Translations under genes and position numbers: made by a program
NCBI GenBank assembly: GCA_001548435.1
Contig: AP017310.1
Span: 1 to 64,000, forward strand
DNA from: Leptolyngbya sp. NIES-3755
GTDB taxonomy: Bacteria > Cyanobacteriota > Cyanobacteriia > Leptolyngbyales > Leptolyngbyaceae
Reading direction: 5' to 3'
Length of the DNA stretch: 64,000 nucleotides
The notes under the pieces: model-generated
What the model saw: the letters and a program-made list of their open reading frames with translations, nothing else
Told to the model about the DNA's origin: nothing
The model's database searches: none
Shown: one piece after another, positions 44,386 through 62,902 of the stretch
How the letters are laid out: every line of letters begins with the position of its first letter
Position numbering within the stretch: position 1 is the first letter of the stretch

Positions 44386-44985
44386 ATGGCATTTCAAAAA
44401 GGCGAAAATCCGCATCGTCCGATCGCAGGTTCAACGATCAAGGTTGAGCCGATTCGTGACAAAAAAGCGATCGTCCGCATCAAGAAAATTTTGGCAAATC
44501 ATCCTCGTGATCTTTGTCTATTCACAGTGGGCATCAATACTGCTTATCGCGCTAATGAATTGCTGTCACTCAGGGTTGGGCAAGTCAAAGGATTGCAAAT
44601 CGGAGATGTCCTCGAACTCAAGCAAAGTAAAACACATAAGTATCGACCTGTGACACTGAATGCAACTGCGGTCGCAGCAATCCAAAATCTGCTTCAAGCT
44701 TCGGAACTTAGAGAAGACGATTTTTTATTCAGTGGGCAACGGGGCGTATTGACTGTTCCAACAGTGAGTACTTTAGTGAAGTCCTGGTGTCAGAATGTTG
44801 GTTTGCGTGGCAACTATGGAAGTCACACACTCCGAAAGACATGGGGATATTGGCAGCGAGTCGAGCGGGGAACCAGCATTCCGTTGCTAATGGAAGCGTT
44901 CGGGCACGCAACACAACGACAGACGCTTTCTTATTTGGGAATTCAGTCTGATGAAATTGCAGAAATTTATAGCTTTGAGTTGTAG
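44386..44985 (+). CDS. Small tyrosine recombinase/integrase
   Basis: This 199-residue protein consists of little more than the catalytic domain of the phage-integrase/XerD family. The full active set is visible: Arg55 in TAYRANELLSLR, a likely Lys82, His147 and Arg150 in SHTLRKTWGY, His164 in FGHAT and the nucleophile Tyr173 in LSYLG. A normal-length integrase has an extra N-terminal core-binding domain of about 100 residues, which is absent here. It marks the junction between the siderophore cluster and the defence island, and may have moved the island, an inference from position. The frame is complete with an ATG. Confidence 0.85.
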   Translation: MAFQKGENPHRPIAGSTIKVEPIRDKKAIVRIKKILANHPRDLCLFTVGINTAYRANELLSLRVGQVKGLQIGDVLELKQSKTHKYRPVTLNATAVAAIQNLLQASELREDDFLFSGQRGVLTVPTVSTLVKSWCQNVGLRGNYGSHTLRKTWGYWQRVERGTSIPLLMEAFGHATQRQTLSYLGIQSDEIAEIYSFEL

Positions 44986-45133: not shown

Positions 45134-48100
45134 CTATTTCTCGAAGTAGTTAGTAGCATGATGTAGCAGTTTTTCCAGCAAAGGATCTCCAGGAAGCATC
45201 AGTCGCAATGAAGGCTGTTCTTCATACTTTGCGGGATCAAACGTGATGAAGTACTGTTGATGTCGATCGAGCATTTTCCACACGCCTTGACTGATTCGCT
45301 CGAACTGAATCCCTCGTGAATGAAGCAGCTTTGAGGTGGTAAACAGTGTCTCAATTTCACCGATCGACATCGTAGCCATTGCCATCGGTTGTCGCATGAT
45401 GGCTAAATCCGCCTGCACATCCATTTCAACCATTTCATCGATCGCAGGACGCAGGGGCGGCGTTTCGAGAACGGTTTCAAACTCGGATAGCAGTACGTCT
45501 TCTTCTTGAGGATCAGCACTGTTGAGCGCTCGTTCGATGAAGGTTGGAACTTTTGCCAGAATCGGCTGGAGTTTGCCCACAACCGTGGAGAACGCATCAA
45601 TGCGATCGCGCAATTTGCGATACACTTTTGCTTCAACGGTTCCATCGTAGTAAAAGTTATGAATTCGTACTGTTGGATAGCGCTGACCGATGCGATCGAT
45701 GCGTCCAATTCGCTGCTCAACCCGCATTGGATTCCACGGCATATCATAGTTAATTAACACACCGCAAGTTTGTAAGTTCAAGCCTTCACTTGCAGATTCA
45801 GTACAAAGCAGGATTTTGATTTCGCCCTTACGGAAGCGCTGTTTGATGTCTTCCTTGGGTACAGTTGTCCATTGATTATCGCGGTAAAGCTCTCCGCCTC
45901 GACCGGAATAGCAAGCGAGTTGATTGCCAAAGCTAGAGCGCAAAAATTCTCGCAAATAATCCATCGTGTCGGTGTATTGCGTAAAGACGATCGCGCTATC
46001 TCGTGTGTTTAGTTCCTGTCGTAGCTGCGTGAGAAATTGAGCGCATTTCGTATCTTCGCCTGTGTTCTCGAACTGAAGCAGCAAGTCTTGCAGATATTCA
46101 ATTTCTCTTGGATGAACTGGCTCGAAGAATGTTTTTAAGCCATCGATTACCGCATCTTCAGCCTCATCAAGTTCGATTAAATCGTCGGGAGTAAGGCTCG
46201 TTTGCTGTCCGGTTTGCAGGTCATTCAAGCGGCGATCGAGCGATCGAGCGATCGCATAAAATGAACTGGTCAGCCGTTTGCGATAGAGCGTCATCAAGAA
46301 TCCTAATGCTTTGCGGTTTTCTTTCTGAGCTAAACGGTAGAAGTGTCGCACGTAATCGCTCACTGCCCGATATAGTTCCGCTTCGCGTGCGGACTCTAAC
46401 ACAACGGCATTGTCCCACACCTCCCGGACTGGCACATCTTTTTCGAGAACGCCTAACTTGTAATACTGTCTGAGCGTATCGCGGGTGTGACGAAACATCA
46501 GATCCTTGAGTGGCGTATTGACCGTGAGAAATTGCCGAGAAGCAGTCATAAAGGCTTCATCTTTAGTTTGATTCGGAGCAATACGGATTCGTCCTTTTTG
46601 CCAGGTATCTTCGAGCTTGTAGGCTAAGAGTCGATCGCGTTTCGTCAAATGTTGCTGCAATCGTGGACAAGATTGACCGCCTTGAGCAAAATAATCGGTG
46701 GACATCTGCTGCCAGAAGTTCAGAATGTGTGAATCAACTTCGCTAGCAATGTGTTTGAAGTAATCACAGAAGTTATCAGCATATTGCCAATGTCCTTTTA
46801 GTCCTAATAGGTTGAGTAGATCGAACACCTCGATCGGATCAATCTGCATCGGAGTCGCTGAGAGCAATAATAAAGCTTTAGTTCTATCCTTGAGCTTTTG
46901 CATCAACTCTAGCAATCGATTCGGGGTTTCCTTCCGATTCTGAGGAGATTTACGACGAGCATGATGGGCTTCATCGAGAATCACAAAATCCCACGGCTCA
47001 GAGTCTAACAGTTCTTGCATTCGTTCTTTGCGGCGCACCAGATGACTCGAAGCCAGAATGAGATTTTGTGTATTCCAAGGATTTTCAGCAAGGGGAATCG
47101 ATCGCTTAAATGAATCTCGCAGTTCGCCTTGGGATAAGCTCCAAAAATGCAGATTGAATTTCTCGCGCAGTTCATCTTGCCATTGGGGTTGGACACTAGC
47201 GGGAGCCAGTACTAAAATGCGCTGTGCTTTTTTTGAGAGAATGAGATAGCGCAGAATTAAACCCGTCTCGATCGTTTTTCCCAGTCCAACTTCATCGGCG
47301 ATCAATCCGTTGCGCGGAAATTCTTCAGCATAGCGACGCAGAATTTTGATTTGGTGAATCCAAGGCTGAATGGGAATCGTTTTGAGGGTGAAATCGAGAC
47401 AACCTGGATGCTCGTGGAGCGTTGCAAGTTTCTTGAACTGCTCAATTTCGCGCTGATAGTCTTCGGGTGATTGAGGGGCTTCGGACAGAATTTCGGGAGA
47501 GACTTCGAGATCGAGTTCTTTCTGATCAAACTCGATCTCCTGGCTCCAAGTGGGCTTGTGTTTCGGAACGTACTGTAACAGTCGCTTTTTAACAGCTTCG
47601 GGCACTTCAAACACTCGCACATTGGCGGTTTGATTGTTCCAGAGTCGCTCAAAGCGATCGCATTCTAATTTCACCCGCTCTAAGTCCCGTCCGCCTTCCC
47701 AAGCGAGATACACATGGAAGGATTCGACATTGGCATACCAGCCGCCGATCGATTCATTATTCGAGCCGCTGAATGCTAAGCGATCGCCATTACTATCTGT
47801 GATGATGCCAACTTTTTCGTGAAAGAGGCGATTTGGATCAAGCTGTTCTTGGCTATTTTCTGGAGTGCCGTCCGATTTGAGCGGAATCGCGATACGAATA
47901 TCGAGAATGTTGTTCTGAATCAGCCAGCTTAAAATCTCGAAGTGTTTGAGTTGGGCAAAGTTGGTTGGAGGTTGTAGGGATTCGTTTAAGCGATCGTTCA
48001 TCATCGATCGCAGTTCATAGCCTTTCTGAATTGCTTGCAGGTCAGCAGGGCTAAACTGACAGCCCATAATCAGCCGCATTTGTCCGGCATTGTCGAGCAT

Positions 48101-48268
48101 TGCGCCGAGTCCACGGGCGACTTTGCTGAGAATAGAACTGTTGAAAAATCCGGCTTTGCGATCGTACTTCACCGCGCATTCCAACGCTGGAATATAGAAA
48201 TCAGAGATCGGATTGTTTTCGTCGCTTGAGTAGCTAATTTTCCAACGGTGGTTATGCAGAGAAGCCAT
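45134..48268 (-). CDS. PLD-like and SNF2-type helicase, Hma-type defence component
   Basis: This is a 1044-residue protein. The first 250 residues resemble a phospholipase D-like nuclease domain, with FHEKVGI near 150 and SGSNNES after it. A superfamily 2 SNF2/RapA-like helicase follows: DEVGLGKT near 327, DEAH near 433, LLLSATPMQ, and the C-lobe RIGRIDRIGQR near 855. Such helicases occur with DUF1156 methylases and DUF499 ATPases in the helicase-methylase-ATPase (Hma) phage-defence class, and both partners are in this window. It is the last gene of the minus-strand run, 5 bases after a PIN toxin gene. It presumably moves on and cuts or remodels unmodified DNA; that role is inferred. Confidence 0.9.
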   Translation of the reverse strand: MASLHNHRWKISYSSDENNPISDFYIPALECAVKYDRKAGFFNSSILSKVARGLGAMLDNAGQMRLIMGCQFSPADLQAIQKGYELRSMMNDRLNESLQPPTNFAQLKHFEILSWLIQNNILDIRIAIPLKSDGTPENSQEQLDPNRLFHEKVGIITDSNGDRLAFSGSNNESIGGWYANVESFHVYLAWEGGRDLERVKLECDRFERLWNNQTANVRVFEVPEAVKKRLLQYVPKHKPTWSQEIEFDQKELDLEVSPEILSEAPQSPEDYQREIEQFKKLATLHEHPGCLDFTLKTIPIQPWIHQIKILRRYAEEFPRNGLIADEVGLGKTIETGLILRYLILSKKAQRILVLAPASVQPQWQDELREKFNLHFWSLSQGELRDSFKRSIPLAENPWNTQNLILASSHLVRRKERMQELLDSEPWDFVILDEAHHARRKSPQNRKETPNRLLELMQKLKDRTKALLLLSATPMQIDPIEVFDLLNLLGLKGHWQYADNFCDYFKHIASEVDSHILNFWQQMSTDYFAQGGQSCPRLQQHLTKRDRLLAYKLEDTWQKGRIRIAPNQTKDEAFMTASRQFLTVNTPLKDLMFRHTRDTLRQYYKLGVLEKDVPVREVWDNAVVLESAREAELYRAVSDYVRHFYRLAQKENRKALGFLMTLYRKRLTSSFYAIARSLDRRLNDLQTGQQTSLTPDDLIELDEAEDAVIDGLKTFFEPVHPREIEYLQDLLLQFENTGEDTKCAQFLTQLRQELNTRDSAIVFTQYTDTMDYLREFLRSSFGNQLACYSGRGGELYRDNQWTTVPKEDIKQRFRKGEIKILLCTESASEGLNLQTCGVLINYDMPWNPMRVEQRIGRIDRIGQRYPTVRIHNFYYDGTVEAKVYRKLRDRIDAFSTVVGKLQPILAKVPTFIERALNSADPQEEDVLLSEFETVLETPPLRPAIDEMVEMDVQADLAIMRQPMAMATMSIGEIETLFTTSKLLHSRGIQFERISQGVWKMLDRHQQYFITFDPAKYEEQPSLRLMLPGDPLLEKLLHHATNYFEK

Positions 48269-48273
48269 ATCAC

Positions 48274-48720
48274 TTAAGGAGAGATAGATTGAGACAGAAT
48301 AACAATAGGCATTTCAGTGATTGATCGTAGTCCTTGATCATTGGTGAGAAAGGTTGTGCATTGTGTAGTTAAAGCAGTTGCAACGTGAATGGCATCGGGT
48401 AGCTTTAAGTTTGAAGTTGCTCTTAAACGAGCGGCTTCAATCAGGAGCGATCGCTGTATGGGAATGACTCTCAAATACTGACGGCTGGAAATAGCTTGCC
48501 TGTATTCGATTTGGCGAGGAACTTTTTGATCAAGCATAGGTTTAACTAACGTCTCAGCAAGGGACAATTCGCTGGTCACTGCGGTAAGCCCTCCTTGGTC
48601 GATCGCTTGAAATAATTCTGCTAATGCTGTTGAAAAATTTGGGTGTGCTTCTAACGCATAAATCCAGATATTTGCATCCAGATAGACGCGATTGCCTTGA
48701 ATAGCAGTCAAGATTCCCAT
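48274..48720 (-). CDS. VapC-type PIN-domain ribonuclease toxin
   Basis: This 148-residue protein has a PIN domain with the four acidic residues that bind metal: Asp15 (YLDANIW), Glu56 (SLAET), Asp109 (LPDAIH) and Asp128 (TNDQG). Proteins of this kind cleave RNA and are held inactive by a partner. The gene overlaps the end of the upstream antitoxin-like gene by 13 bases, the usual order of antitoxin then toxin. It sits inside the run of defence genes between the nuclease-like gene and the helicase, so it may guard the operon against loss or act as an abortive-infection effector. Confidence 0.87.
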   Translation of the reverse strand: MGILTAIQGNRVYLDANIWIYALEAHPNFSTALAELFQAIDQGGLTAVTSELSLAETLVKPMLDQKVPRQIEYRQAISSRQYLRVIPIQRSLLIEAARLRATSNLKLPDAIHVATALTTQCTTFLTNDQGLRSITEMPIVILSQSISP

Positions 48721-49091
48721 GCGTCGCGTTCCTGCCGAATAAATTGATCAACTTCTTCAGGAGTTGCAAAACTGCCCTTTGCTGAACCAATGAAGCTTGC
48801 TAGAGGACGATCGCTTCTAACAGAGTACTCATCGCGGCTACCGTAATATAGCTCCATCATCCCCTGCTGTTCTGCATCCATATTTTCCAGGTTCGCTGCT
48901 AGTTGATCAAATGCCTCTTGTTCTTCTGGTGTGCGAGGTCGGTTGAGAAATTCATTGAGCCTTCGTCTTCGCTCTTCGGGCGTGATAAATTGCTGCTCAT
49001 CAATGTCGATTACAATCTCCGTTTCATTGGGAAGATCGATCGCTTCAATTAGCTCGATCGTTCTTCCGCGTAAGATTCCTTTGACTTTCAT
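48708..49091 (-). CDS. Antitoxin of the PIN toxin (AF2212-like N-terminus)
   Basis: This is a 127-residue acidic protein. The first 30 residues (MKVKGILRGRTIELIE and the EIVIDI strand) look like the AF2212-type antitoxin N-terminal domain. The middle is a charged helical stretch with RRRRLNEF. A C-terminal segment probably wraps the toxin. It is directly upstream of, and overlaps, the PIN gene, and its ATG overlaps the stop of the gene before it by 4 bases. The antitoxin role is inferred mainly from this arrangement. Confidence 0.75.
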   Translation of the reverse strand: MKVKGILRGRTIELIEAIDLPNETEIVIDIDEQQFITPEERRRRLNEFLNRPRTPEEQEAFDQLAANLENMDAEQQGMMELYYGSRDEYSVRSDRPLASFIGSAKGSFATPEEVDQFIRQERDAWES

Positions 49092-49711
49092 TGGGTGGCT
49101 CCTTGCATTAGGTTTTGTTCACAGTGTTGAAAGATAAAATTGAGAGATCCCAAAATGGATTGAAGATCACTCACAGCGTAGAGCAGTGTTTCATATACAG
49201 CACCTAAAGTATCAAGTTTGTAGAACTTCCAGCCTTCGCCGTTGGTGACGATGCCAAAAATGTCGATCGCTCTTCCAATTTGTTGATTACTCCATTGACA
49301 CGCTTGCATCTCGACTAAGCACTGTGCTGCTCCTTGCTCAAAGTCATCTTTTTTCGCTTCAACAATGCACAAGAAAGGAGTACCAAAATAGCCGCGATTT
49401 TCAGTGATTAAATAGTCTGCTGCACCATGAGCAACTTCGCTTTCTAAATTCGCTCCCTTCCAAATTTTCAGACGCTTGAAGGCTTGAATTGCTTCGAGCA
49501 GAATGGCATCGATTAAGAGTTTTTTGCCTTCTTCCGTTCGTTCTAAGTCGAATAATTTGAGTCGATCGAGGTGCAATTGAAAGGCATCTGTTGGGGAAAG
49601 GGGTTCTGCGTTAATCTCCCAAAGGATTAAGTGTTCAAGGTTTAGCTGCTTGTAGGCTTCATCGAGCTTAAATTTGGAAAATGCTTTTTTCTTAGCGGGG
49701 GTTGATTTCAT
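49088..49711 (-). CDS. PD-(D/E)XK nuclease-like protein
   Basis: This 207-residue protein has the core pattern of a PD-(D/E)XK nuclease. AADYLI near 98 supplies the Asp, and IVEAKKDD near 118 supplies the ExK, followed by a Gln-rich helix (QGAAQCLVEMQA). A similar fold is used in HsdR N-termini and Cas4-like nucleases. The start at 49711 is chosen because AAGGAG lies about 5 bases ahead. A longer frame would begin at 49753, inside the methyltransferase gene. It lies 19 bases after the DUF1156 methyltransferase and overlaps the antitoxin gene. I infer a restriction or DNA-binding accessory role. The family is not named with confidence. Confidence 0.75.
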   Translation of the reverse strand: MKSTPAKKKAFSKFKLDEAYKQLNLEHLILWEINAEPLSPTDAFQLHLDRLKLFDLERTEEGKKLLIDAILLEAIQAFKRLKIWKGANLESEVAHGAADYLITENRGYFGTPFLCIVEAKKDDFEQGAAQCLVEMQACQWSNQQIGRAIDIFGIVTNGEGWKFYKLDTLGAVYETLLYAVSDLQSILGSLNFIFQHCEQNLMQGATQ

Positions 49712-49730
49712 GAGTCTCCTTCCACAGCGG

Positions 49731-52661
49731 TTAAAACAAACTTTGTTGCACATTGCCTAAGTCTAATTCTGGCTGTTCATAGCGGACTTTGGCTTTGATT
49801 TCGTCCATTGCTAACCACAGATCAGCGAGGGCTTTTTCTTCGGGCATTCGTTTTCGATCGTCCCCAATATGCGGAATCACGCGCAAAGTCACTTCCCAAG
49901 CTCGGATAAATAAATCGTTGCTCAAAAGTCCGGTGGTTTTGAGGAAGCGACGGACGGGATCAATGGATTGTTCTTCGAGATAGACGGCAATCACCGCATG
50001 GAGTCCATCGATCAGAGAAGTGAGGGTGAAGTCTTCGGGGTTGGTGGAAAAGGCGCGTTTTTTGAAGCGCTGGTCGGGGGTGAGGAGTTTGCAGATGCCG
50101 CTGGTGGAGTCGAGCAGTTTGTGGGTTTTGGCGAGGTCGGTGACGTTGAATCCTCCGACAGCGAGGGCAAGCTGGCGAGCTTCATCGAAGGGGAATTCGC
50201 GAGCGCGGAAGGCATCCCAGGCGAGGATGTACCAGGTGGTGAGGGGGTCGAAGCCGAGGGTGTCGGTTTGGGCGAGTTTGCGGAAGCGGTAGTTGGCGAC
50301 GGCTTTGCGGGCTTCACTAAAGGCTTCTTCGGGGCGGACTTCGTTGCCGGAGGTGTCGAGGATCGGGGAGTGGCGGGAGAAGACGTTGAGGGCGGGTCCG
50401 AAGGCGGAGAGGTAGAGGTCGATGCCGTTGATTTCGTTTGCCTCGAATTCGGGGGCGCGGTGTTCGACGAGGTTGGCGACTTGGGGGCGCAGATCGTCCC
50501 ACCAGGCTTGTCCGGCTTGCGGATCGCGTTTGCGGCAGACGAGGAGGACGGTGCTGGAGACGGAGTTTTTTTGTGCTTGGTGGAGATTTTGGGGGTTTTC
50601 GGTGCTGACTGACCAGGAGGCGGTGACCTCGAATCCGGCATCGATGAGGGATTTGGCGAGGACATCCCAGGCTCCTGAGTCTTTGTGGTTGAATTGGACG
50701 GTCATTACGCCGTCGTCGCGCAGGACTCGATGGTATTCGGCGAAGGCAAGCGCCATTTTTGCTTCGTAGTCTTGGTTGGCGAGTTCTTCGGGTGAGATGC
50801 CCATGTTGCGGAAGCGTCCAGGATTTGCGATCGCTTCATTATCTTTATCAGTTAGCTCATTGAAAAATAAGTCAGGAAAGCTCTTTAACAAAGCAACTCT
50901 CAGCCACACGTAGAAAAAATCTGATATTTCTCCATATCGAATGGAGTCATAATAAGGAGGATCAGTAACAACAATATCTACAGAGCCGCTGTCAATATGC
51001 AGTAAGCTATCTGCTGAGGCTAGAGAGATATCACATCGATTTCCGTCAAAACTATTTCCCTCGGTATGTCTGGTTGCTTGAATTAGTTGACTACCTAGAG
51101 AAGAATCAAGGTACTGACATAATTGACCATAATCGCTTATACAATCAACTGAAGAAGACCACAATCTTGTAGTGCCATCAGATTCTGGATAGTTCCAAAA
51201 CAGACTTAACGAGTGCTGGGCACTGGCAGGTTGTGTTTTTAATGCTGTTGCATCCCAGTGTGCAAGGCGACAGTTTTTATCAACACACCGATCCAATACT
51301 AAAGCTAGGTAAGTTGTTATTGCTTGTGATCTCTCTTGGTCATAATTCTGTTGTATTAATGCAATAGCTTCGTCAATGATTTCAGAATAAACAGAAAGAG
51401 ATAGTAACTGTCTCGGATTAAACATTTGATTCCAGAAATGAATTCCGTACAGATACATATCTGGACCTCTATGCGTGTTCGAGGGAACTTCTTGAACAGG
51501 AATAAATCCTAATCGCTCAAGTTCGCTTCTCTTTTTCTCTAAGTATTGAACTGCTTTGTTAAAGCCTTGTAGATCGACTTCACTCGGCAATCTAAATTCA
51601 ATTGCTGTTTTCCCTTTTTTGTATGCGATCGCATATAGCTGATGTCCCAAACCAGTAGATTGAGCGCAAGCCTTAATTACTTCATCCTCTACGATGTTAT
51701 GACAGTTAGGACATTTTCCAATACCTCTACTGATTGTGTTTGCTGCTTCTGGTTCGTATTCGTCATCTCCTACTTGAATGGTTGAACCCTTTCCTTTTCT
51801 ACCTTGAACAAGATCAAAGCCAACTTGCTTTTTCTCAGGTTGAGCAATCAGTTTCACAGCATACCAATCTCTAGTTGCTTTGCGTTCGTTGCCTTTACCT
51901 GCATAGTTAGTAGTTCTACTCAACCAACCATTCGGAAGCAGAGGAATAGATGATTGGCAGGAAGGACAAACTACTGTATGCGCCCAGAAGTAAGTTTGAA
52001 CCTTCTCGTTTGGCAATGATGGGAAAAACTCAGCAAGTCGCTTCTCTGCCTCATCTCCCACCCATTTCACCCATTTATCGATATCCTGCTGCAAATCCGC
52101 CCCAAACTTTAGCGGATACTCGATCGCTGCTTTCATCGTCACCACTGCCACCGGATTAAGATCCGAAGCCAGCACCTTCAACCCATACCGCGCCGCCTCA
52201 AACGGAATACTCCCGCCCCCCGCAAACGCATCCAACACCACCGGAGTCCTTGTCCCCCACTGCTGCTCACACAACTCCTGCACCCGCGCAATCCGCTCCG
52301 GCGATGGCGGCGTTTTGTACAGCTTCGTTTCTTTGTTGCGATACTTGCGCCACTCCAACCCTAAAAGATACTCAAATTCTTCGATCGACACCTCATCCGG
52401 CAACAGCGATCCCAACACCGAAGCCCGACTAAACGACAAAGGTTTGCGTGAATACCACCGATGCAACCCCTTAAACGGATTCCCCCCATGTTCGTGATAC
52501 ACCTGCTCATTCAGGAGCTTCACAGGCATAATCTTCTCGATAAACACAGGCTTGCGGGTCGTCATAGTCAAAGATCTCAGCGCATCGTCCGTTGATATTT
52601 TAGACGGTCGATCGGATTTGCGCCGACTATCCCTAAATTGAGAGCCATTAACACTTGCCAT
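49731..52661 (-). CDS. DUF1156-type DNA methyltransferase, Hma-type defence component
   Basis: This is a protein of up to 976 residues. An opening like other DUF1156 proteins (IEKIMPVKLLNEQ and LHRWYSRKPLSFSRA) is followed by SAM motif I (LDAFAGGGSIPFEAA, about 145), two zinc-finger-like pairs (CPSC near 234, CPNC near 317) and the catalytic DPPY near 569. DPPY fits N6-adenine or N4-cytosine methylation. The true start may be the ATG at 52565, where family similarity begins; neither start has a good ribosome site. Base composition is strikingly uneven: about 50030-50820 is GC-rich and 50830-52000 is AT-rich, as if segments came from different sources. It heads the run to the nuclease-like gene, the PIN pair and the helicase. 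Confidence 0.88.
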   Translation of the reverse strand: MASVNGSQFRDSRRKSDRPSKISTDDALRSLTMTTRKPVFIEKIMPVKLLNEQVYHEHGGNPFKGLHRWYSRKPLSFSRASVLGSLLPDEVSIEEFEYLLGLEWRKYRNKETKLYKTPPSPERIARVQELCEQQWGTRTPVVLDAFAGGGSIPFEAARYGLKVLASDLNPVAVVTMKAAIEYPLKFGADLQQDIDKWVKWVGDEAEKRLAEFFPSLPNEKVQTYFWAHTVVCPSCQSSIPLLPNGWLSRTTNYAGKGNERKATRDWYAVKLIAQPEKKQVGFDLVQGRKGKGSTIQVGDDEYEPEAANTISRGIGKCPNCHNIVEDEVIKACAQSTGLGHQLYAIAYKKGKTAIEFRLPSEVDLQGFNKAVQYLEKKRSELERLGFIPVQEVPSNTHRGPDMYLYGIHFWNQMFNPRQLLSLSVYSEIIDEAIALIQQNYDQERSQAITTYLALVLDRCVDKNCRLAHWDATALKTQPASAQHSLSLFWNYPESDGTTRLWSSSVDCISDYGQLCQYLDSSLGSQLIQATRHTEGNSFDGNRCDISLASADSLLHIDSGSVDIVVTDPPYYDSIRYGEISDFFYVWLRVALLKSFPDLFFNELTDKDNEAIANPGRFRNMGISPEELANQDYEAKMALAFAEYHRVLRDDGVMTVQFNHKDSGAWDVLAKSLIDAGFEVTASWSVSTENPQNLHQAQKNSVSSTVLLVCRKRDPQAGQAWWDDLRPQVANLVEHRAPEFEANEINGIDLYLSAFGPALNVFSRHSPILDTSGNEVRPEEAFSEARKAVANYRFRKLAQTDTLGFDPLTTWYILAWDAFRAREFPFDEARQLALAVGGFNVTDLAKTHKLLDSTSGICKLLTPDQRFKKRAFSTNPEDFTLTSLIDGLHAVIAVYLEEQSIDPVRRFLKTTGLLSNDLFIRAWEVTLRVIPHIGDDRKRMPEEKALADLWLAMDEIKAKVRYEQPELDLGNVQQSLF

Positions 52662-52908: not shown

Positions 52909-53976
52909 ATGAAAGGAGAATTGCTCAAACGGTTATTTAGAGCGATCGCCAGCGAAGACAAAGAGGCGATCCAGAGTTTACTGACCATTGTGGTTGAAGA
53001 AGAACGCAAAAAAGGGCACTCCACACTTGCGGATCAGCTTTCCAACATCACCAAAAGAAGCAATTCTAACCACTCCTCAATTCCACTTCCCCCCGGATTA
53101 CCCGCTCCCCCTCCTGGACTTCCCAAATCAGCATTTCCCAAAGGCATATCCTCTCGTCCTACGCTGACCAACGCAGTAGGAATACTCAGCGAACTGCCCA
53201 GCAGCAAGCGATCGAATCACCCTTTCGTCATCAGCATCCCTCGCGATCGCCTCAAGCATCATATGATTCTGCCCCATGAAATCGAAGATCGGTTTCGCCG
53301 TGTTGAACGAGAATATGCTGCTCGTGAACGCCTCGCTCACTACGGTTTGTCTTATCGTCAGAAGATTTTACTCTACGGCTCACCGGGCTGCGGTAAAACG
53401 ATGGGTGCAGAACGCCTTGCGTGGAATACAGGCTTACCCCTTCTGAAGGTTCGATTTGATGCACTGGTTTCATCCTATCTAGGCGAAACCGCCAGCAACC
53501 TCAGAGCAGTCTTTGAACTAGCCGCTCAGAATCCCTGTCTATTGTTGATTGACGAGTGTGACGCGATCGCAAAATCTCGCGAAGACAGTCAAGAAGTCGG
53601 AGAAATCAAGCGGGTTGTCAACGCTTTTCTGCAAATGCTAGACGAGTTTGAGTCCGTTAATGGATTACTTGTGGCAGCAACTAACCTCGATAAATCCCTC
53701 GATCAGGCGATCTGGAGACGATTTGACGATGTAATTGAAGTCCCAAAGCCCACAGTAAGAGAAATTGAGGCTATCCTAAAACAGACCTTTTCCTCGGTCA
53801 CAATTGGCACCATAAACTGGGAAACCATTGTGCAGAAGATGCAGGGATTTTCAGCAGCAGAAACAGTTCGTGTTGCTCAAGATGCTGCTAAACGTGCTGT
53901 TCTCGATCGAGAAGAATTGGTCATCCAGGATCATCTGGAAGCATCAATTCAAGAACTTCGAGCCGCTCATGTCTAA
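52909..53976 (+). CDS. ietA: IetA-type AAA+ ATPase
   Basis: This is a 355-residue AAA+ ATPase. A Pro-rich spacer (about 60-85) separates a short helical N-terminus from the ATPase core. Walker A is GSPGCGKT near 160 and Walker B is LLLIDECD near 212. A sensor region, ATNLDKSLDQAIWRRFDD, follows. It overlaps an intracellular subtilisin gene by 8 bases. An AAA ATPase of this size paired with a subtilisin-like protease is the IetAS arrangement, first known as a plasmid-stability pair and later reported as phage defence. It reads opposite to the flanking defence genes and has its own upstream spacer of about 250 bases, so it is likely an inserted unit with its own promoter. Confidence 0.82.
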   Translation: MKGELLKRLFRAIASEDKEAIQSLLTIVVEEERKKGHSTLADQLSNITKRSNSNHSSIPLPPGLPAPPPGLPKSAFPKGISSRPTLTNAVGILSELPSSKRSNHPFVISIPRDRLKHHMILPHEIEDRFRRVEREYAARERLAHYGLSYRQKILLYGSPGCGKTMGAERLAWNTGLPLLKVRFDALVSSYLGETASNLRAVFELAAQNPCLLLIDECDAIAKSREDSQEVGEIKRVVNAFLQMLDEFESVNGLLVAATNLDKSLDQAIWRRFDDVIEVPKPTVREIEAILKQTFSSVTIGTINWETIVQKMQGFSAAETVRVAQDAAKRAVLDREELVIQDHLEASIQELRAAHV

Positions 53977-56578
53977 CGCCTCCCAACCGTTCCCGCACAT
54001 TTTTCTCAAGTTTGTAAAAAGCGGAACCGCCACACCTGGTAGCTTTCCAAGACCAACTCAGCAATCGCTAGCTAATAAAGGAGATGCGGGCGGACATGGA
54101 GGTAGGCTCAAGACATCCGTTTCATCGATCGTCTCAGACTGGCAAACCGTTCGAGAGCAACGCAAACAAGAAGGGAAGCCCGACTTACCCGACGCTGCGC
54201 CATTAATTCTCAAAGTCGATCCACAAACTTTTGATGCAGATAAGCTCAAAAGTTTTGGAATTGAAGTCATTCTTGAACTAGAAGACGGCTACATCATCGG
54301 GGCTTCCGCAGATTCGGGACTGACTCAATTGCAGCAAAAGATTGAAAAATTTATCCGCGAAGAACACGGCGGTGGTGGAGTAGCACAAATATTTGAGATT
54401 CTGGAAGGAAGATTCGGGCGACTTGAATGTATTCTTTCAGAAGAATTATTGGCACGGTGGGATCAGATCAAAGACGATGAGAACTATACCGTTGAAGTTA
54501 GTATTGCTTGCGTCGGTTTGACCTCACAATTCTCTGACTACCCTCGTCGTGCAGAAGGAGAAACGGACGAACGCTATGCTAGGAAAATTGCTCGGTGGAG
54601 CGATCGCCGTCAGCAGACGGAGCAACAATGGGATGACCTCCAGTGGAATCGGCAAAGTGATTTCTTGGACTTCATTAAAATTTATCAACCTGAAATTATC
54701 CAAGATGCCTCTTGGGACGATCGATCGCATATCGCACTTTTGCCAGATAGTTTTTCCTGCGTCATTGAGATCAGGGGCAAGGGGCTAAAAGATCTCGTGA
54801 CCAACTTCCCGTTTGTGTTTGACGTTAGCGAACCTGAGCAGTTTGCTGAACCTGCGATCGGCATTCCATTTCCTCCAAGTGCCGAGCCAGCATTCATACT
54901 AGAACCACCCAGTCTTACAGCACCCAGAGTTTGTGTAATCGATAGCGGAATGCAGGAGAAACACCAGTACCTTGCTAGTGCCATTGATGCAGACTATTCG
55001 CAATGTTGGATTCCTGGCGAGAGCGATCGAACCTCCGATGATGTCACAGGAGGCGGTCACGGAACTCGCGTGGCAAGTGCAATCCTGTACCCAAGAGGAC
55101 TTCCTGAATCTGGTAGCTACCCAGCAGTTTGTTGGCTGCAAAATGCCAGAGTCCTGAATCGAGACTGTGTTGTACCCAGGAAACTGAACCTATCAGAGGT
55201 ATTGAACGAGATTGTTGAGTTCTACTACAACCGTACCGGAACCCGTATCTTCAACCATTCCATTACAGGTTCCGTTCCTTGCCGCTTACAATACATGAGC
55301 GCGTGGGCGGCAGAAATGGATTACTTAACTTGGCGGAACGATATTCTCTTCATCGTAGCTGCGGGAAATATTCCAATCTACCGAGGGATAGGCTTAGGAG
55401 TTTCACGCCGAACCATTCATGAACATTTCGAGGCTGGACTGTCATATCCAGAATATCTACTCCAGCCTTCTTCACGGATTGCAAATCCCGCTCAGAGCTT
55501 TCAAGCCCTAACGGTTGGCTCGATCTCGCATACCACTTATCAGGTTCCGCCCATTCAATCGATCGCAAAGGAAGATTACCCATCAGCCTTTTCCTGTTCA
55601 GGCTATGGAATCTGGGATTCGATCAAACCGGATGTGGTTGAATATGGTGGAGATTTGGCAATGGATTCTGGTCAACCTCCCAGTTTTCCGAGCATCCCAG
55701 AGATTTGTCCTGAACTAGCCCGCTCCACGACAGGAGGCGCACCGCTGAGTGATCAGGGTGCGGTCGGAACTTCCTATGCTGCACCTAAAGTTGCTCACAT
55801 CGCCGCTGTACTGGCAGCAACTTTCCCCCAAGCAAGCTGTCTCCTTTACCGTGCGTTAATTGTTCATTCGGCTCGATTACCAGGTTTGGCAAATGCCTCG
55901 AATGAGATGCTTGCTCAGGCGATTCAGATGATGGGGTATGGTTTACCCAATCTAGAACGCGCATTAGGCAATGCTCCCAACCGCATTACACTCGTCACAA
56001 ATGAAGATATCTCCATCAGCGCCCGCCAAGCTCATATCTACCAAGTTCAGCTTCCACCAGAGTTGCAGTCACTCGTGAGTGAGTACGATGTCTTGATTGA
56101 GATCACCCTCTCTTACAAGGCAGAACCGCGTCGTACTCGTCGGAACAAGCGGAAATATTTATCCACTTGGCTCCACTGGCAATGTAGTCAAAAGGGAGAA
56201 TCCTCCGACAAGTTTTTGGAAAGAGTCCTCAATGACTACGAATCCCAGGAAGATGAGGAGGGAGGCGATGGTGACTTTGCGTGGACTTTAGGGCAGCAGA
56301 AAAACTATGGAAAGATGAGAAACATCTCCAGAGGGACAGGCACCGTCCAAAAAGATTGGGCGATCGTACAGCCCGACCAATTACGGGAAGCGTTCTGTAT
56401 TGCTGTCGTTGGGCATAAAGGCTGGAACAACGATCCCACGGCTCTCGTTCCGTACTCGCTGGTTGTCAGCTTTGAAGTAACGAATGCCAACGTCCCAGTG
56501 TATACCTCGTTTGTGGAAGCTCAGGTGTCTTTGCAGGAACAAGCCCAACTCGAAATTCAGCAAAAAATTATATTCTAG
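53969..56578 (+). CDS. ietS: IetS-type subtilisin-like (S8) protease
   Basis: This 869-residue S8-family serine protease has its triad at Asp (CVIDSG, about 325), His (GGGHGTRVAS, about 364) and Ser (GTSYAAP, about 602). There is no signal peptide, so it acts in the cytoplasm. About 300 residues before the protease core probably hold the sensing or ATPase-binding part, and about 230 follow it. The ATG at 53969 overlaps the ATPase stop; a longer frame lies within the ATPase gene and is rejected. The ATPase presumably gates the protease, and the substrate is unknown. The pair is embedded between the methyltransferase and DUF499 genes. Confidence 0.84.
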   Translation: MSNASQPFPHIFLKFVKSGTATPGSFPRPTQQSLANKGDAGGHGGRLKTSVSSIVSDWQTVREQRKQEGKPDLPDAAPLILKVDPQTFDADKLKSFGIEVILELEDGYIIGASADSGLTQLQQKIEKFIREEHGGGGVAQIFEILEGRFGRLECILSEELLARWDQIKDDENYTVEVSIACVGLTSQFSDYPRRAEGETDERYARKIARWSDRRQQTEQQWDDLQWNRQSDFLDFIKIYQPEIIQDASWDDRSHIALLPDSFSCVIEIRGKGLKDLVTNFPFVFDVSEPEQFAEPAIGIPFPPSAEPAFILEPPSLTAPRVCVIDSGMQEKHQYLASAIDADYSQCWIPGESDRTSDDVTGGGHGTRVASAILYPRGLPESGSYPAVCWLQNARVLNRDCVVPRKLNLSEVLNEIVEFYYNRTGTRIFNHSITGSVPCRLQYMSAWAAEMDYLTWRNDILFIVAAGNIPIYRGIGLGVSRRTIHEHFEAGLSYPEYLLQPSSRIANPAQSFQALTVGSISHTTYQVPPIQSIAKEDYPSAFSCSGYGIWDSIKPDVVEYGGDLAMDSGQPPSFPSIPEICPELARSTTGGAPLSDQGAVGTSYAAPKVAHIAAVLAATFPQASCLLYRALIVHSARLPGLANASNEMLAQAIQMMGYGLPNLERALGNAPNRITLVTNEDISISARQAHIYQVQLPPELQSLVSEYDVLIEITLSYKAEPRRTRRNKRKYLSTWLHWQCSQKGESSDKFLERVLNDYESQEDEEGGDGDFAWTLGQQKNYGKMRNISRGTGTVQKDWAIVQPDQLREAFCIAVVGHKGWNNDPTALVPYSLVVSFEVTNANVPVYTSFVEAQVSLQEQAQLEIQQKIIF

Positions 56579-59211: not shown

Positions 59212-59646
59212 TCAATCTCCTAAGAGCATCCGAATTGCTCTCAATGCCTGACTGCGTTTTCCGTTGCTGACTTTAGCGAACCAGTAATGCGCCTCCTCAT
59301 TACTCATTGCCTGCACTCCAGCCGCAATATTGGCGATTCGCTCAGGCTTGGAGAGCGGCTGAAGAGTTTGAAACAGAAGAGCAAGATTGACCCCAGATGT
59401 TTCATCTAATATGTAAGGGGTTTGACGCTGTTGGTTCAATGTTTTTGGGTCATAATTGTTAGCTTTGAGGCAGTTGTAGATCGCTTGCCGTGCCTGCAAT
59501 AAAGCTTGTCCCTTCAACCGACCAACACGCTTCGCCGCCGATCGCTTTTTCTCACCTGCTTTTTTATAAGCGCATTGGTACAACTCCAATGCGAAATTGT
59601 TGTTGTCCGTGGGAACGACTTTGAGTTGAAACTCCTGCATACCCAA
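59212..59646 (-). CDS. Unknown small basic protein behind the DUF499 ATPase
   Basis: This is a 144-residue protein. It starts with a strand-rich segment (MQEFQLKVVP, FALELYQCAYK), then a basic patch (KKRSAAKRVGRLKG) and a helical C-terminus (NEEAHYWFAKV, QALRAIRMLL). I do not recognise the family. It follows the DUF499 gene by about 40 bases on the same strand, so it is probably co-transcribed and may be a dedicated subunit of the defence system. The basic patch would suit nucleic-acid binding. Confidence 0.65.
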   Translation of the reverse strand: MGMQEFQLKVVPTDNNNFALELYQCAYKKAGEKKRSAAKRVGRLKGQALLQARQAIYNCLKANNYDPKTLNQQRQTPYILDETSGVNLALLFQTLQPLSKPERIANIAAGVQAMSNEEAHYWFAKVSNGKRSQALRAIRMLLGD

Positions 59647-59686: not shown

Positions 59687-62600
59687 TCAGTATAGTACCT
59701 TAGTCGTCAAACTGAGCCGATCCACCGGATTTCTCAAGAGCGCCTGCTCGATCGCTTTCATCTCCACGCCCTGCGGCTCGATCGCAGCTGCGAACTCAAA
59801 CGTAATTTTAAGCGAGACATCAGCTCGAACATCGGGAACCGCCAATAGAGTATTAGTCGGATTCGCAAAGCTTTGAAATCCTTTGACGTTGCCTTGATAC
59901 TCCAGTCGTACAAACTGATCGCCCGTCTGAATCGTGACGAATTGATCGATTCGCATGGGATAGCGCATCAGAAGCGGGAGCGTTGTGGTCAGCTTGCGGT
60001 AATCCATCACTTCAGACACCGACAGTTCCAACCGCTCGATCGATTTAATTTTGTCATCATGAATGCGATCGCGCAGTTCATTAAATACGCTGTTAAGGCT
60101 CCCCGATAAATCAATTACCTCCGGCTTGACATCGAACAGGGTAGGCGTATCGTGAACCGAAGTAGAGCCAGTGGAGAGCGTCGAATACGTCTGCACTCTT
60201 GCCTTTGATTCTGCCGCTGTAGTTTCTCCTTCCCCGTAATCTGCTACCACGCGAAAGGTTGCTGTTTGAGCGATTTCTCCTTCGTATTCGTCAGAAGGTA
60301 AGAAATTTCCTGCAATTAAATTGCCGTCTTGAAACAGCTTGACCGAAAGTGCCCCTGCTGCCTTCCACCGCACTCGCACAGGTTTAGTGGATTGCGTACT
60401 CGGCATCACTTGAGCACTAATCTCGATTTCTCTCGGCTTTGGTGGTTCTAGAATGCCGCGCCGATACAGCACCATGCGATCTGAAAACTCAATAATATCG
60501 GGCAGAATCAGCAGAGCCGCATCGGTTTTGATGTAGACGCGCTCACCCACCTTCAAATCCCACTGTCCTGTGGTTAACCCTTGAACGATCGACGTTCTCA
60601 GCTTTGAAGTTTCCGCATCCGAAAACAGATTTAACCCCAAATCTTTCGCAAACGCTTCTTTCAATCCCTTGGTGCTAATCGAATCGAGTCCGGTCGCCCA
60701 AACTTTTTGCAATACATACGCAGGCGCATACGGTTGAGTGTCATCGGCACGAATCTTCTGACAGTCTTTCAGCGCTTTGAGAATCGCTTCTTGCTGATTA
60801 TTCTTGCCCTTGACATCACTTGCATCCTGAGCGGGAAGCGGGTAGTGCATTAATCCTTTGGGAGCTTTGACCGGATCATTAGATGGATAGAACAAATGAC
60901 GATACGCATTCGTTAGCGCAATTCGCGTCGCTAAATCTAATTCTCCTTCTTTCTGCTTCAGTTGTTTGTGTTGACTTTCTGAGAGGTCTTCTAGGCGATT
61001 CTGAGATTTAAGAATGTTGCGAATTGCCCTCAGTTCTCGCGCCACGCCGATCGCTCTTTCTAATTCCTGCTGATTCGCCAGTAGAAACAGCAATCGATTG
61101 CGAAAGATGCGAAACTTGCCAGAGTCGCCTGTGCTGTTAAAGATTTGTTCGACGATCGCAGGGGCAGCATCCATTGAAGATTGCACCGTTGCTTCATTGA
61201 AGTCAATTACACAAAGCGCAATACTATCTGCTGCATCATCGACATCACTCGGACTCTCTGGGGATGAAATCAGTGTGAAATAGCGATTCGCAAAAATGGT
61301 GTCACGACGAGATCGTAAATCGTCTTTTGCTTCACTGCGTCCGACTTGCTCTTTCTCTTCAGCAATGATTTTGTTAATCGAAGGTTCTTCTTTGAATCGG
61401 GCGATCGAGGTAATCGGATCGTGATCAAGATACCAAGCCACTGTACTGAGCCGATCCAACGCACTCTCGACAAAGCCTGATTCAATTCCAGGGGTGAGCA
61501 GTGATAGATTCAGTTCCGCTCGTCGAATGCCCGCAACCACACCTTGATTAATCGAGTGTAGAAAGATTGTTCGCCCAATCCAGGTCGAAAACGGTGGCTT
61601 TCCTGCTGCGATCCAGTCTTGATCCTGTAGTTGAGCGTGTGCTTCTCGTCCATTTGCATTGTAGAGGTCGGCTTGAATCGGTAGCCGCATCAGGGGACGT
61701 TCTAAGCGCGAGGTCAATTCATTCGTGATCTCTTCATTCACACCGATCGGTAAGTGATGCGCGTGGATCATGGGCATCCAATTTGTGCGATCGCGCCACA
61801 GTTCACGAACGGCGATCGCAAAAAGTCTCAGCGCTCCACGAGTCCGATTAAAGTTCGGAATCGAGGCAATCTTTTTGGTCAGTAAGTTGAATAGCTCTGG
61901 ATGGATCGGGTAGCTTGATTCGATCGTCTGGGAATAGCTGGCATCTTGACAACCATCAGGAAGATTAATGCGGCTCGATCTGTACGCATTGAGATATTCT
62001 TGTGCCGCTTTTTTCGCGGCTTTTTCATCAACACGCTGAAACAATCGCTGCTTCACAATGTTGTAGATTTCAACATCGGTACTCGGACTCAGGATGCGTT
62101 CTTGACGGGCGGAAGCGCGAACCGTTTCTTGAAGCTCTGCGGTTTCATCCGCAAAGGTATCGGAAGATGAGGCGAGGGAATAGACGAACACTAAGTTATT
62201 GCAAGATCCAGCTAAATCCATTAGCGCGAACAGAAACGCCACGACCTGTTTTGATAGGTCGCTATTCCCAACAATTACCCCTTTCGCTTTGCGTAAATAC
62301 TGCGCGATTTCATCCAGCACAATCAAAGTCGGTCGATCTTGAATGAGTTGCTGAAGGACTCCAGTTCCTGGACTTACTTTCTTCTCATCCGAGCCGCGTA
62401 GCAGACTGTATCCTCCGATCCCGCCAATTCGATAGGCAATCTCGCCCCAAAGCGTATAGGTTGTGATGCCTGTTTCTGGGTGAAAATCTCCGTTTGTCGG
62501 GTCGAGGTCTTGACACGCGATCGCAGCAACTTGAACCGGAGCGGTAGGAATTTGATCGAGACGTTCGCTAAATCGATCGAGTCCTCGAATACTGCGTCCG

Positions 62601-62902
62601 TTTCGGGCAATATGCCAGAGTGCAATTTCGTCGTGGGTTTTCCCACCGCCAAAGCTGGTTTCTAATCGAATCACCGGAGAACCGATCGCCGTTCCCGCCA
62701 AACGCCCAAACACTTCAGCAATCAACGTTTTTAGCCCTTCTGTCGGAAACGTATTGGCAAAAAACGATTCTGGGTCTTGGTAAACCTTGGGTGCATTGCC
62801 ATCAACGACCAGTTTCAACTTAGCAGCAAACAAATCAAGCGACAGTTCGCCAGAGAGAATCTCATCTCTCGGAGTACAGGTTTCAAAAATGGATGGCAGC
62901 AC
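59687..62902 (-). CDS. DUF499 P-loop ATPase, Hma-type defence component
   Basis: This 1071-residue protein has the DUF499 layout. The P-loop LETSFGGGKTH is near residue 85, with DEIALWHIARNG after it, and LIVLDEIAQYLRKA near 195 is Walker B. A long helical middle (SEKEQ-rich segments near 640-720) and beta-rich C-terminal domains follow. DUF499 ATPases are large partners of DUF1156 methylases and helicases in defence loci, and also resemble BREX BrxC in size and P-loop. I take it as the third backbone protein of the Hma-type system. The gene is about 7 kb from its methylase partner, with inserted genes between. Confidence 0.88.
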   Translation of the reverse strand: MLPSIFETCTPRDEILSGELSLDLFAAKLKLVVDGNAPKVYQDPESFFANTFPTEGLKTLIAEVFGRLAGTAIGSPVIRLETSFGGGKTHDEIALWHIARNGRSIRGLDRFSERLDQIPTAPVQVAAIACQDLDPTNGDFHPETGITTYTLWGEIAYRIGGIGGYSLLRGSDEKKVSPGTGVLQQLIQDRPTLIVLDEIAQYLRKAKGVIVGNSDLSKQVVAFLFALMDLAGSCNNLVFVYSLASSSDTFADETAELQETVRASARQERILSPSTDVEIYNIVKQRLFQRVDEKAAKKAAQEYLNAYRSSRINLPDGCQDASYSQTIESSYPIHPELFNLLTKKIASIPNFNRTRGALRLFAIAVRELWRDRTNWMPMIHAHHLPIGVNEEITNELTSRLERPLMRLPIQADLYNANGREAHAQLQDQDWIAAGKPPFSTWIGRTIFLHSINQGVVAGIRRAELNLSLLTPGIESGFVESALDRLSTVAWYLDHDPITSIARFKEEPSINKIIAEEKEQVGRSEAKDDLRSRRDTIFANRYFTLISSPESPSDVDDAADSIALCVIDFNEATVQSSMDAAPAIVEQIFNSTGDSGKFRIFRNRLLFLLANQQELERAIGVARELRAIRNILKSQNRLEDLSESQHKQLKQKEGELDLATRIALTNAYRHLFYPSNDPVKAPKGLMHYPLPAQDASDVKGKNNQQEAILKALKDCQKIRADDTQPYAPAYVLQKVWATGLDSISTKGLKEAFAKDLGLNLFSDAETSKLRTSIVQGLTTGQWDLKVGERVYIKTDAALLILPDIIEFSDRMVLYRRGILEPPKPREIEISAQVMPSTQSTKPVRVRWKAAGALSVKLFQDGNLIAGNFLPSDEYEGEIAQTATFRVVADYGEGETTAAESKARVQTYSTLSTGSTSVHDTPTLFDVKPEVIDLSGSLNSVFNELRDRIHDDKIKSIERLELSVSEVMDYRKLTTTLPLLMRYPMRIDQFVTIQTGDQFVRLEYQGNVKGFQSFANPTNTLLAVPDVRADVSLKITFEFAAAIEPQGVEMKAIEQALLRNPVDRLSLTTKVLY

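Follow-up and report, generated by a model that had tools for sequence, protein, structure and literature searches.

Evidence for exchange of the predicted target recognition domain in the mosaic methyltransferase gene of a cyanobacterial Hma defence locus

Introduction

Loci combining a helicase, a methylase, and an ATPase are known as the Hma system (PMC8565338) and have been reclassified among the BREX-related (BR), DUF499-centred systems, whose methyltransferases carry a target recognition domain (TRD) with a 4-Cys motif as an insert after core strand 2 (PMC12839542). Exchange of TRDs is already known from Type I, Type III, and further systems. In Helicobacter pylori, TRDs of Type I HsdS and Type III Mod move and are exchanged, and TRD groups have been linked to motifs through methylomes (PMC3983042). 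No report of TRD exchange in DUF1156/Hma methyltransferases was found in the literature searched, which mostly did not extend to subscription papers and is thus weak evidence of novelty; a text search of the paper on BR systems (PMC12839542) found nothing on recombination.

The locus described here lies in the window, i.e., the whole 64,000-nucleotide stretch of Leptolyngbya sp. NIES-3755 DNA that was analysed. Judged from sequence, it is an Hma/BR defence system: DUF499 ATPase, DUF1156 methyltransferase, and SNF2 helicase are all present. The methyltransferase has the motif I and DPPY of a BR N6-methyltransferase, and in the predicted model, the TRD follows core strand 2 and contains the 4-Cys motif.

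Results

The core genes are encoded on the minus strand. The methyltransferase (49731..52661; 976 aa) was assigned as a DUF1156/HmaB-type N6-adenine DNA methyltransferase by PADLOC (HmaB, E 3e-71; DUF1156_MTase) and Pfam (DUF1156), the ATPase (59687..62902) as a DUF499 AAA+ protein by Pfam (DUF499, E 2e-28) and PADLOC (HmaC, E 8e-99), and the SNF2 helicase with N-terminal PLD-like signals (HmaA/PLD_Helicase; 45134..48268) by PADLOC and Pfam (SNF2-rel_dom, Helicase_C). In Type-2 BR, an HKD (PLD-like) nuclease is fused to the N-terminus of the helicase; the helicase here matched the PbeA and PLD_Helicase profiles, and Pfam listed no PLD domain for it. The small conserved gene beside the ATPase (59212..59646, minus strand) encodes a DUF7680 protein (Pfam PF24728, E 6e-47) without a DUF3780 match. 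In most cyanobacterial loci, a DUF7680 gene adjoins the DUF499 ATPase (65–89% identical), and in alphaproteobacterial, Rhodococcus, and haloarchaeal plasmid loci, small hypothetical genes occupy a similar position. DUF7680, of which no mention was found in the literature searched, may belong to the core of the system in the way that DUF3780 does.

Two slots of the locus hold accessory genes. Between DUF7680 and the methyltransferase, profile matches identified a pair of IetA ATPase and IetS subtilase (52909..56578, plus strand), opposite in orientation to the enclosing locus. IetAS was found in the same slot in L. boryana (86–89% aa identity), in locus L042 (55–63%), and in L003, L010, and L011 (27–35%); this slot, therefore, repeatedly holds IetAS. 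The slot between methyltransferase and helicase (48274..49753, minus strand) encodes a PD-(D/E)xK-like protein, an antitoxin-like protein, and a PIN toxin (PADLOC, Pfam); across relatives, it contains differing toxin–antitoxin and nuclease genes. A tyrosine-recombinase-type integrase (Phage_integrase; 44386–44985, plus strand) lies at the helicase end of the locus. In two other loci (L041, 4698–8103; L073, 5874–6227), ORFs start with the ATPase N-terminus and run on into the C-terminal part of the methyltransferase; the DNA between the two was apparently deleted.

Sequence inspection of the methyltransferase located the SAM-binding motif I (FAGGG; 52212..52226, minus strand), nearly invariant among the aligned sequences, and the catalytic motif IV (DPPYY; 50949..50963, minus strand). 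Four cysteines, in the pairs CPSC (residues 232–235; 51957..51968, minus strand) and CPNC (residues 317–320; 51702..51713, minus strand), were invariant in 54 aligned sequences (positions 232, 235, 317, and 320). An AlphaFold model (m374839f8c581) covering residues 35–976 (model residue = gene residue minus 34), built with remote homologues in the alignment, reached a mean pLDDT of 84.8 and a pTM of 0.81 and supersedes an earlier, poor model (pLDDT 66.9). In this model, strands 1 and 2 surround motif I and are followed by an insert of ∼325 residues, strand 3, and the DPPY strand. The enzyme is thus predicted to be of the alpha-class N6-adenine type, with the TRD inserted between core strands 2 and 3 at about residues 213–539 (51045..52025, minus strand). 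By analogy with the position of the TRD in alpha-class methyltransferases and with BR enzymes (PMC12839542), this insert would be the part that reads the DNA sequence. Matches in a structural search were confined to the methyltransferase core, the best VIA matches being tRNA methyltransferases (Z about 18), and no solved structure matched the methyltransferase by sequence. The score against the NCBIfam equivalog DUF1156_antiphage (NF042963) was 251 bits, below the curated cut-off of 1000.

A preliminary description had reported a mosaic base composition within this gene from hand counts of G+C in two 60-mers (37 from position 50281 and 19 from position 51301), both of which were exact on recount. 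Along the gene (codons are numbered in its 5′→3′ direction, so that window positions descend), GC content falls from ∼0.64 to 0.36–0.42 and rises again, and the shift resides mostly in third codon positions. In 60-codon windows, GC3 was 0.53–0.72 for starts 1–121, 0.22–0.33 for starts 241–541, and 0.57–0.83 for starts 601–871. Maximum-likelihood segmentation of GC3 placed change points at codons 227/228 and 615/616 (positions 51981 and 50816), delimiting segments with GC3 of 0.61, 0.28, and 0.68, with an additional drop beyond codon 880. The AT-rich tract (codons 228–615; 50817..51980, minus strand; GC3 0.28) agrees with the limits first proposed (50830–52000) and, as had been stated, includes both zinc-finger-like cysteine pairs and DPPY; given the position of the insert in the model, it covers the predicted TRD and continues beyond DPPY. 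The GC-rich segment described as following the tract was recovered as well, but GC-rich DNA also precedes it. The N-terminal part of this frame (codons 33–227; 51981..52565, minus strand; GC3 0.65) encodes the DUF1156 region, motif I, and core strands 1–2 and the C-terminal part (codons 616–880; 50022..50816, minus strand; GC3 0.75) the remaining catalytic core and the helical C-terminal domains, as assigned from segmentation and the AlphaFold model. Because GC3 of the flanks (0.72) exceeds the locus background (0.48), the tract is not simply an AT-rich island. The three-segment model gained 66.1 log-likelihood units; the best of 300 codon shuffles gained 12.6, and the 95th percentile among 137 other long ORFs of the compared loci was 20.9 (the top outliers listed among these were judged by position to be DUF1156 methyltransferases that had escaped the label filter). 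The compositional mosaic is real and far beyond chance.

Composition by itself, however, does not demonstrate exchange. In an alignment of the query with 60 cyanobacterial orthologues, GC3 of the middle was lower than that of the flanks in 61/61 genes (mean difference −0.25). All orthologues thus share the pattern, the outcome that the preliminary description had named as a refutation. The AT-rich middle characterises the family and cannot on its own be read as the scar of one event in the query; composition as sole evidence of a recent event was rejected. Outside cyanobacteria, the contrast was weak (+0.04 to −0.15 in 13 plasmid methyltransferases). That the middle is AT-rich in every aligned gene, including the query, would fit an explanation without any exchange, namely in-place drift to A+T of a fast-evolving middle under weak codon selection, with GC-ending codons retained in the conserved frame. 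It would also fit the correlation between conservation and four-fold GC of bins in the methyltransferase (rho 0.63) and the helicase (rho 0.45), but no such correlation was found in the ATPase. Four-fold GC of 40-codon bins stayed within 0.41–0.68 in helicase and ATPase, and a helicase bin that equalled the TRD in variability (conservation 0.26) had a value of 0.42, compared with 0.18 for the TRD bin; poor conservation therefore does not explain the AT-rich TRD. Furthermore, codons 196–227 and 571–615 of the query encode conserved protein, yet they are much AT-richer at four-fold sites than those of the orthologues. This extension of the AT-rich tract past the variable domain into conserved codons is specific to the query gene, is at odds with drift in place, and fits a replaced tract that carried some conserved edge with it.

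The departure from the locus background is two-sided. In the 51 loci with enough flanking ORFs, GC3 of the methyltransferase flanks exceeded the background in 49 (mean +0.12), and GC3 of the TRD was below it in 49 (mean −0.14); the slope on locus background was 1.08 for flanks and 0.47 for the TRD. Third-position identity was 0.56 in the flanks vs. 0.48 in helicase and ATPase, and at codons for the same amino acid, the flanks were more alike than the helicase in 710/820 non-independent pairs. Four-fold codons ending in C and in G were both frequent in the flanks. This synonymous likeness and GC-richness suggest that conversion is biased, that codons are under selection, or that the flanks were exchanged more recently. 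One could imagine that homologous exchange takes place only in the conserved shoulders, where GC-biased gene conversion would raise GC and homogenise synonymous sites, whereas the divergent TRD cannot pair and stays AT-rich. The departures of flank and TRD GC3, the 710/820 pairs, and the use of both C- and G-ending codons support such a scheme, but repeated recombination as the source of the GC-rich frame strikes us as rather unlikely.

Evidence for exchange of the middle came from sequence relationships. In 40-residue bins of the orthologue alignment, the flanks were mostly 70–97% identical to the query protein and the middle 17–72%. Identities of flank and TRD were nearly uncorrelated (rho 0.085; 1,830 pairs), and pairs with flanks 95–98% identical in nucleotides had TRDs that were 45–82%, mostly less than 70%, identical (e.g., 0.98 vs. 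0.63 for L026/L079 and 0.96 vs. 0.45 for L004/L016). Segment-wise phylogeny, as had been proposed, yielded no single congruent tree. The topologies of N-flank, TRD, and C-flank rejected one another, with the strongest conflict for the TRD: its data lost about 970–1000 lnL units on the flank trees (p-AU 4e-5 and 3e-7), flank data lost 911 and 1898 units on the TRD tree (p-AU below 1e-50), and imposing the TRD clade of the query on the flank data cost 626 units (p-AU 4e-79). For single clades, AU tests confined to TRD data did not reach significance (p 0.29–0.39). The disagreement between N- and C-flank trees indicates that the frame recombines too. Two-breakpoint fits to 76 close-flank pairs (which share members and are thus not independent) placed left breakpoints around codon 247 (IQR 247–250), with a second group at 220, and right breakpoints at codons 536–549 or 616–632; the borders of the query (about 200–227 and 615) match the long class. 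A copy of HIP1 (GCGATCGC) is located at the right border of the query; it was rejected as a breakpoint motif, being present there in only 2/70 genes.

The same step in identity was observed within the genus. Plasmid pLBX of L. boryana (L110) carries the locus with its genes, IetS and IetA among them, in the same order; nucleotide identity is 85–87% for helicase, ATPase, and DUF7680, 88–98% for most bins of the methyltransferase flanks (one variable bin, codons 101–135, is at 0.69), and 43–59% for the TRD bins. This pattern implies that, since their separation, one or both lineages have had their TRD replaced. Another genome of the genus (G403) showed the same step at the TRD. A near-identical frame around dissimilar TRDs in close relatives, as is characteristic of methyltransferases with exchangeable TRDs, is thus found in this family. 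Drift in place does not readily give flanks of 95–98% beside middles of 45–60%, sharp recurrent breakpoints, and conflicting trees. As a full explanation it is contradicted, and we regard it as improbable overall; it may contribute to the AT-richness of the TRD pool.

Some genomes contain two systems whose flanks agree but whose TRDs differ. The two in Phormidium FACHB-1136, compared on draft contigs that both end inside the shared part, were 88–100% identical in nucleotides in most bins of the flanks and 37–60% in the TRD bins. In genome G233, two near-identical copies have 52 differences within one 137-bp patch of the TRD and 15 over the remaining ∼4.6 kb; this patch is a small recent exchange inside the TRD. 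Both cases could be taken to suggest that silent TRD cassettes, inverting segments, or a diversity-generating retroelement alter the TRD within a strain. The query genome, however, has a single methyltransferase copy, with no second match found, and the substitution spectrum of the G233 patch is mixed rather than adenine-directed, so that switching of this kind appears very improbable. The methyltransferases of L053 (5977–9729) and L058 (6001–9390) have longer TRDs, of about 480–530 codons vs. about 305. A peptide-pattern search of viral contigs yielded no donor, and a search for a phage donor yielded no close match, only distant ones in Sulfolobus viruses. The TRD nearest to that of the query was 55% identical in protein; with no donor at hand, the event in the query is either old, or its donor is unsampled. 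Composition cannot date it, because all cyanobacterial members of the family share the AT-rich middle.

Discussion

The gene is mosaic, and its middle has been exchanged against the frame; in the predicted model, the exchanged part coincides with the TRD insert. Exchange of the specificity region, as first suspected, is borne out by the congruence tests, the near-identical flanks around dissimilar middles, the recurrent breakpoints, and the same-genus comparison; the argument from composition does not hold in its original form. It is very likely that the TRD of the Hma-locus methyltransferase was replaced as a cassette by homologous recombination, drawing on an AT-rich pool and with a change of motif to be expected. 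The gene would encode the self-marking methyltransferase of the locus, with its TRD inserted in the catalytic fold, and recombination between alleles in the conserved flanks would swap the insert between a left border near codons 220–247 and a right border near 536–549 or 616–632. The tract replaced in the query would be of the long kind (about codons 200–615), DPPY included. Incoming TRDs would stem from an AT-rich pool presumably shared among cyanobacteria across genera, whereas the frame would track host composition. The enzyme thereby probably changes which DNA sequence is protected, and by analogy with the TRD groups of H. pylori (PMC3983042), the methylation motif of the whole system would be altered. 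Pressure to change the methylation target, which had been invoked at the outset, would presumably come from phages or plasmids that select for TRD exchange.

These results indicate that the self-marking enzyme of a widespread, little-studied anti-phage system is diversified through exchange of its recognition domain. The cassette borders of the DUF1156/Hma methyltransferase are now defined, strain pairs that share the frame but differ in the TRD lend themselves directly to reading the recognition code of the family, and the compositional contrast within one gene provides a natural setting in which to test for GC-biased conversion in bacteria.

With the described Hma/BR systems (PMC8565338; PMC12839542), the locus shares the DUF499 ATPase, the DUF1156 N6-methyltransferase with a post-strand-2 TRD and 4-Cys motif, and the SNF2 helicase. 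It differs in nesting accessory defence genes in two slots and in scoring below the NCBIfam anti-phage equivalog cut-offs (251 of 1000 bits for the methyltransferase). In Type-2 BR, the small-gene slot is occupied by a stand-alone DUF3780, in contrast to DUF7680 here. The BrxXI methyltransferase of Type-3 BREX (PMC12839542) resembles the query in its divergent TRDs, nested between core strands and containing a 4-Cys Zn finger, but has a different N-terminal element and belongs to a PglZ-containing system. In H. pylori, the exchanged TRDs reside in HsdS or Mod, and the change in specificity was demonstrated by methylomes, whereas the TRD considered here is embedded in an alpha-class defence methyltransferase, for which a changed specificity is predicted. 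Both cases have in common that recombination in conserved flanking sequence replaces the TRD, which in H. pylori confers a different specificity on the same frame.
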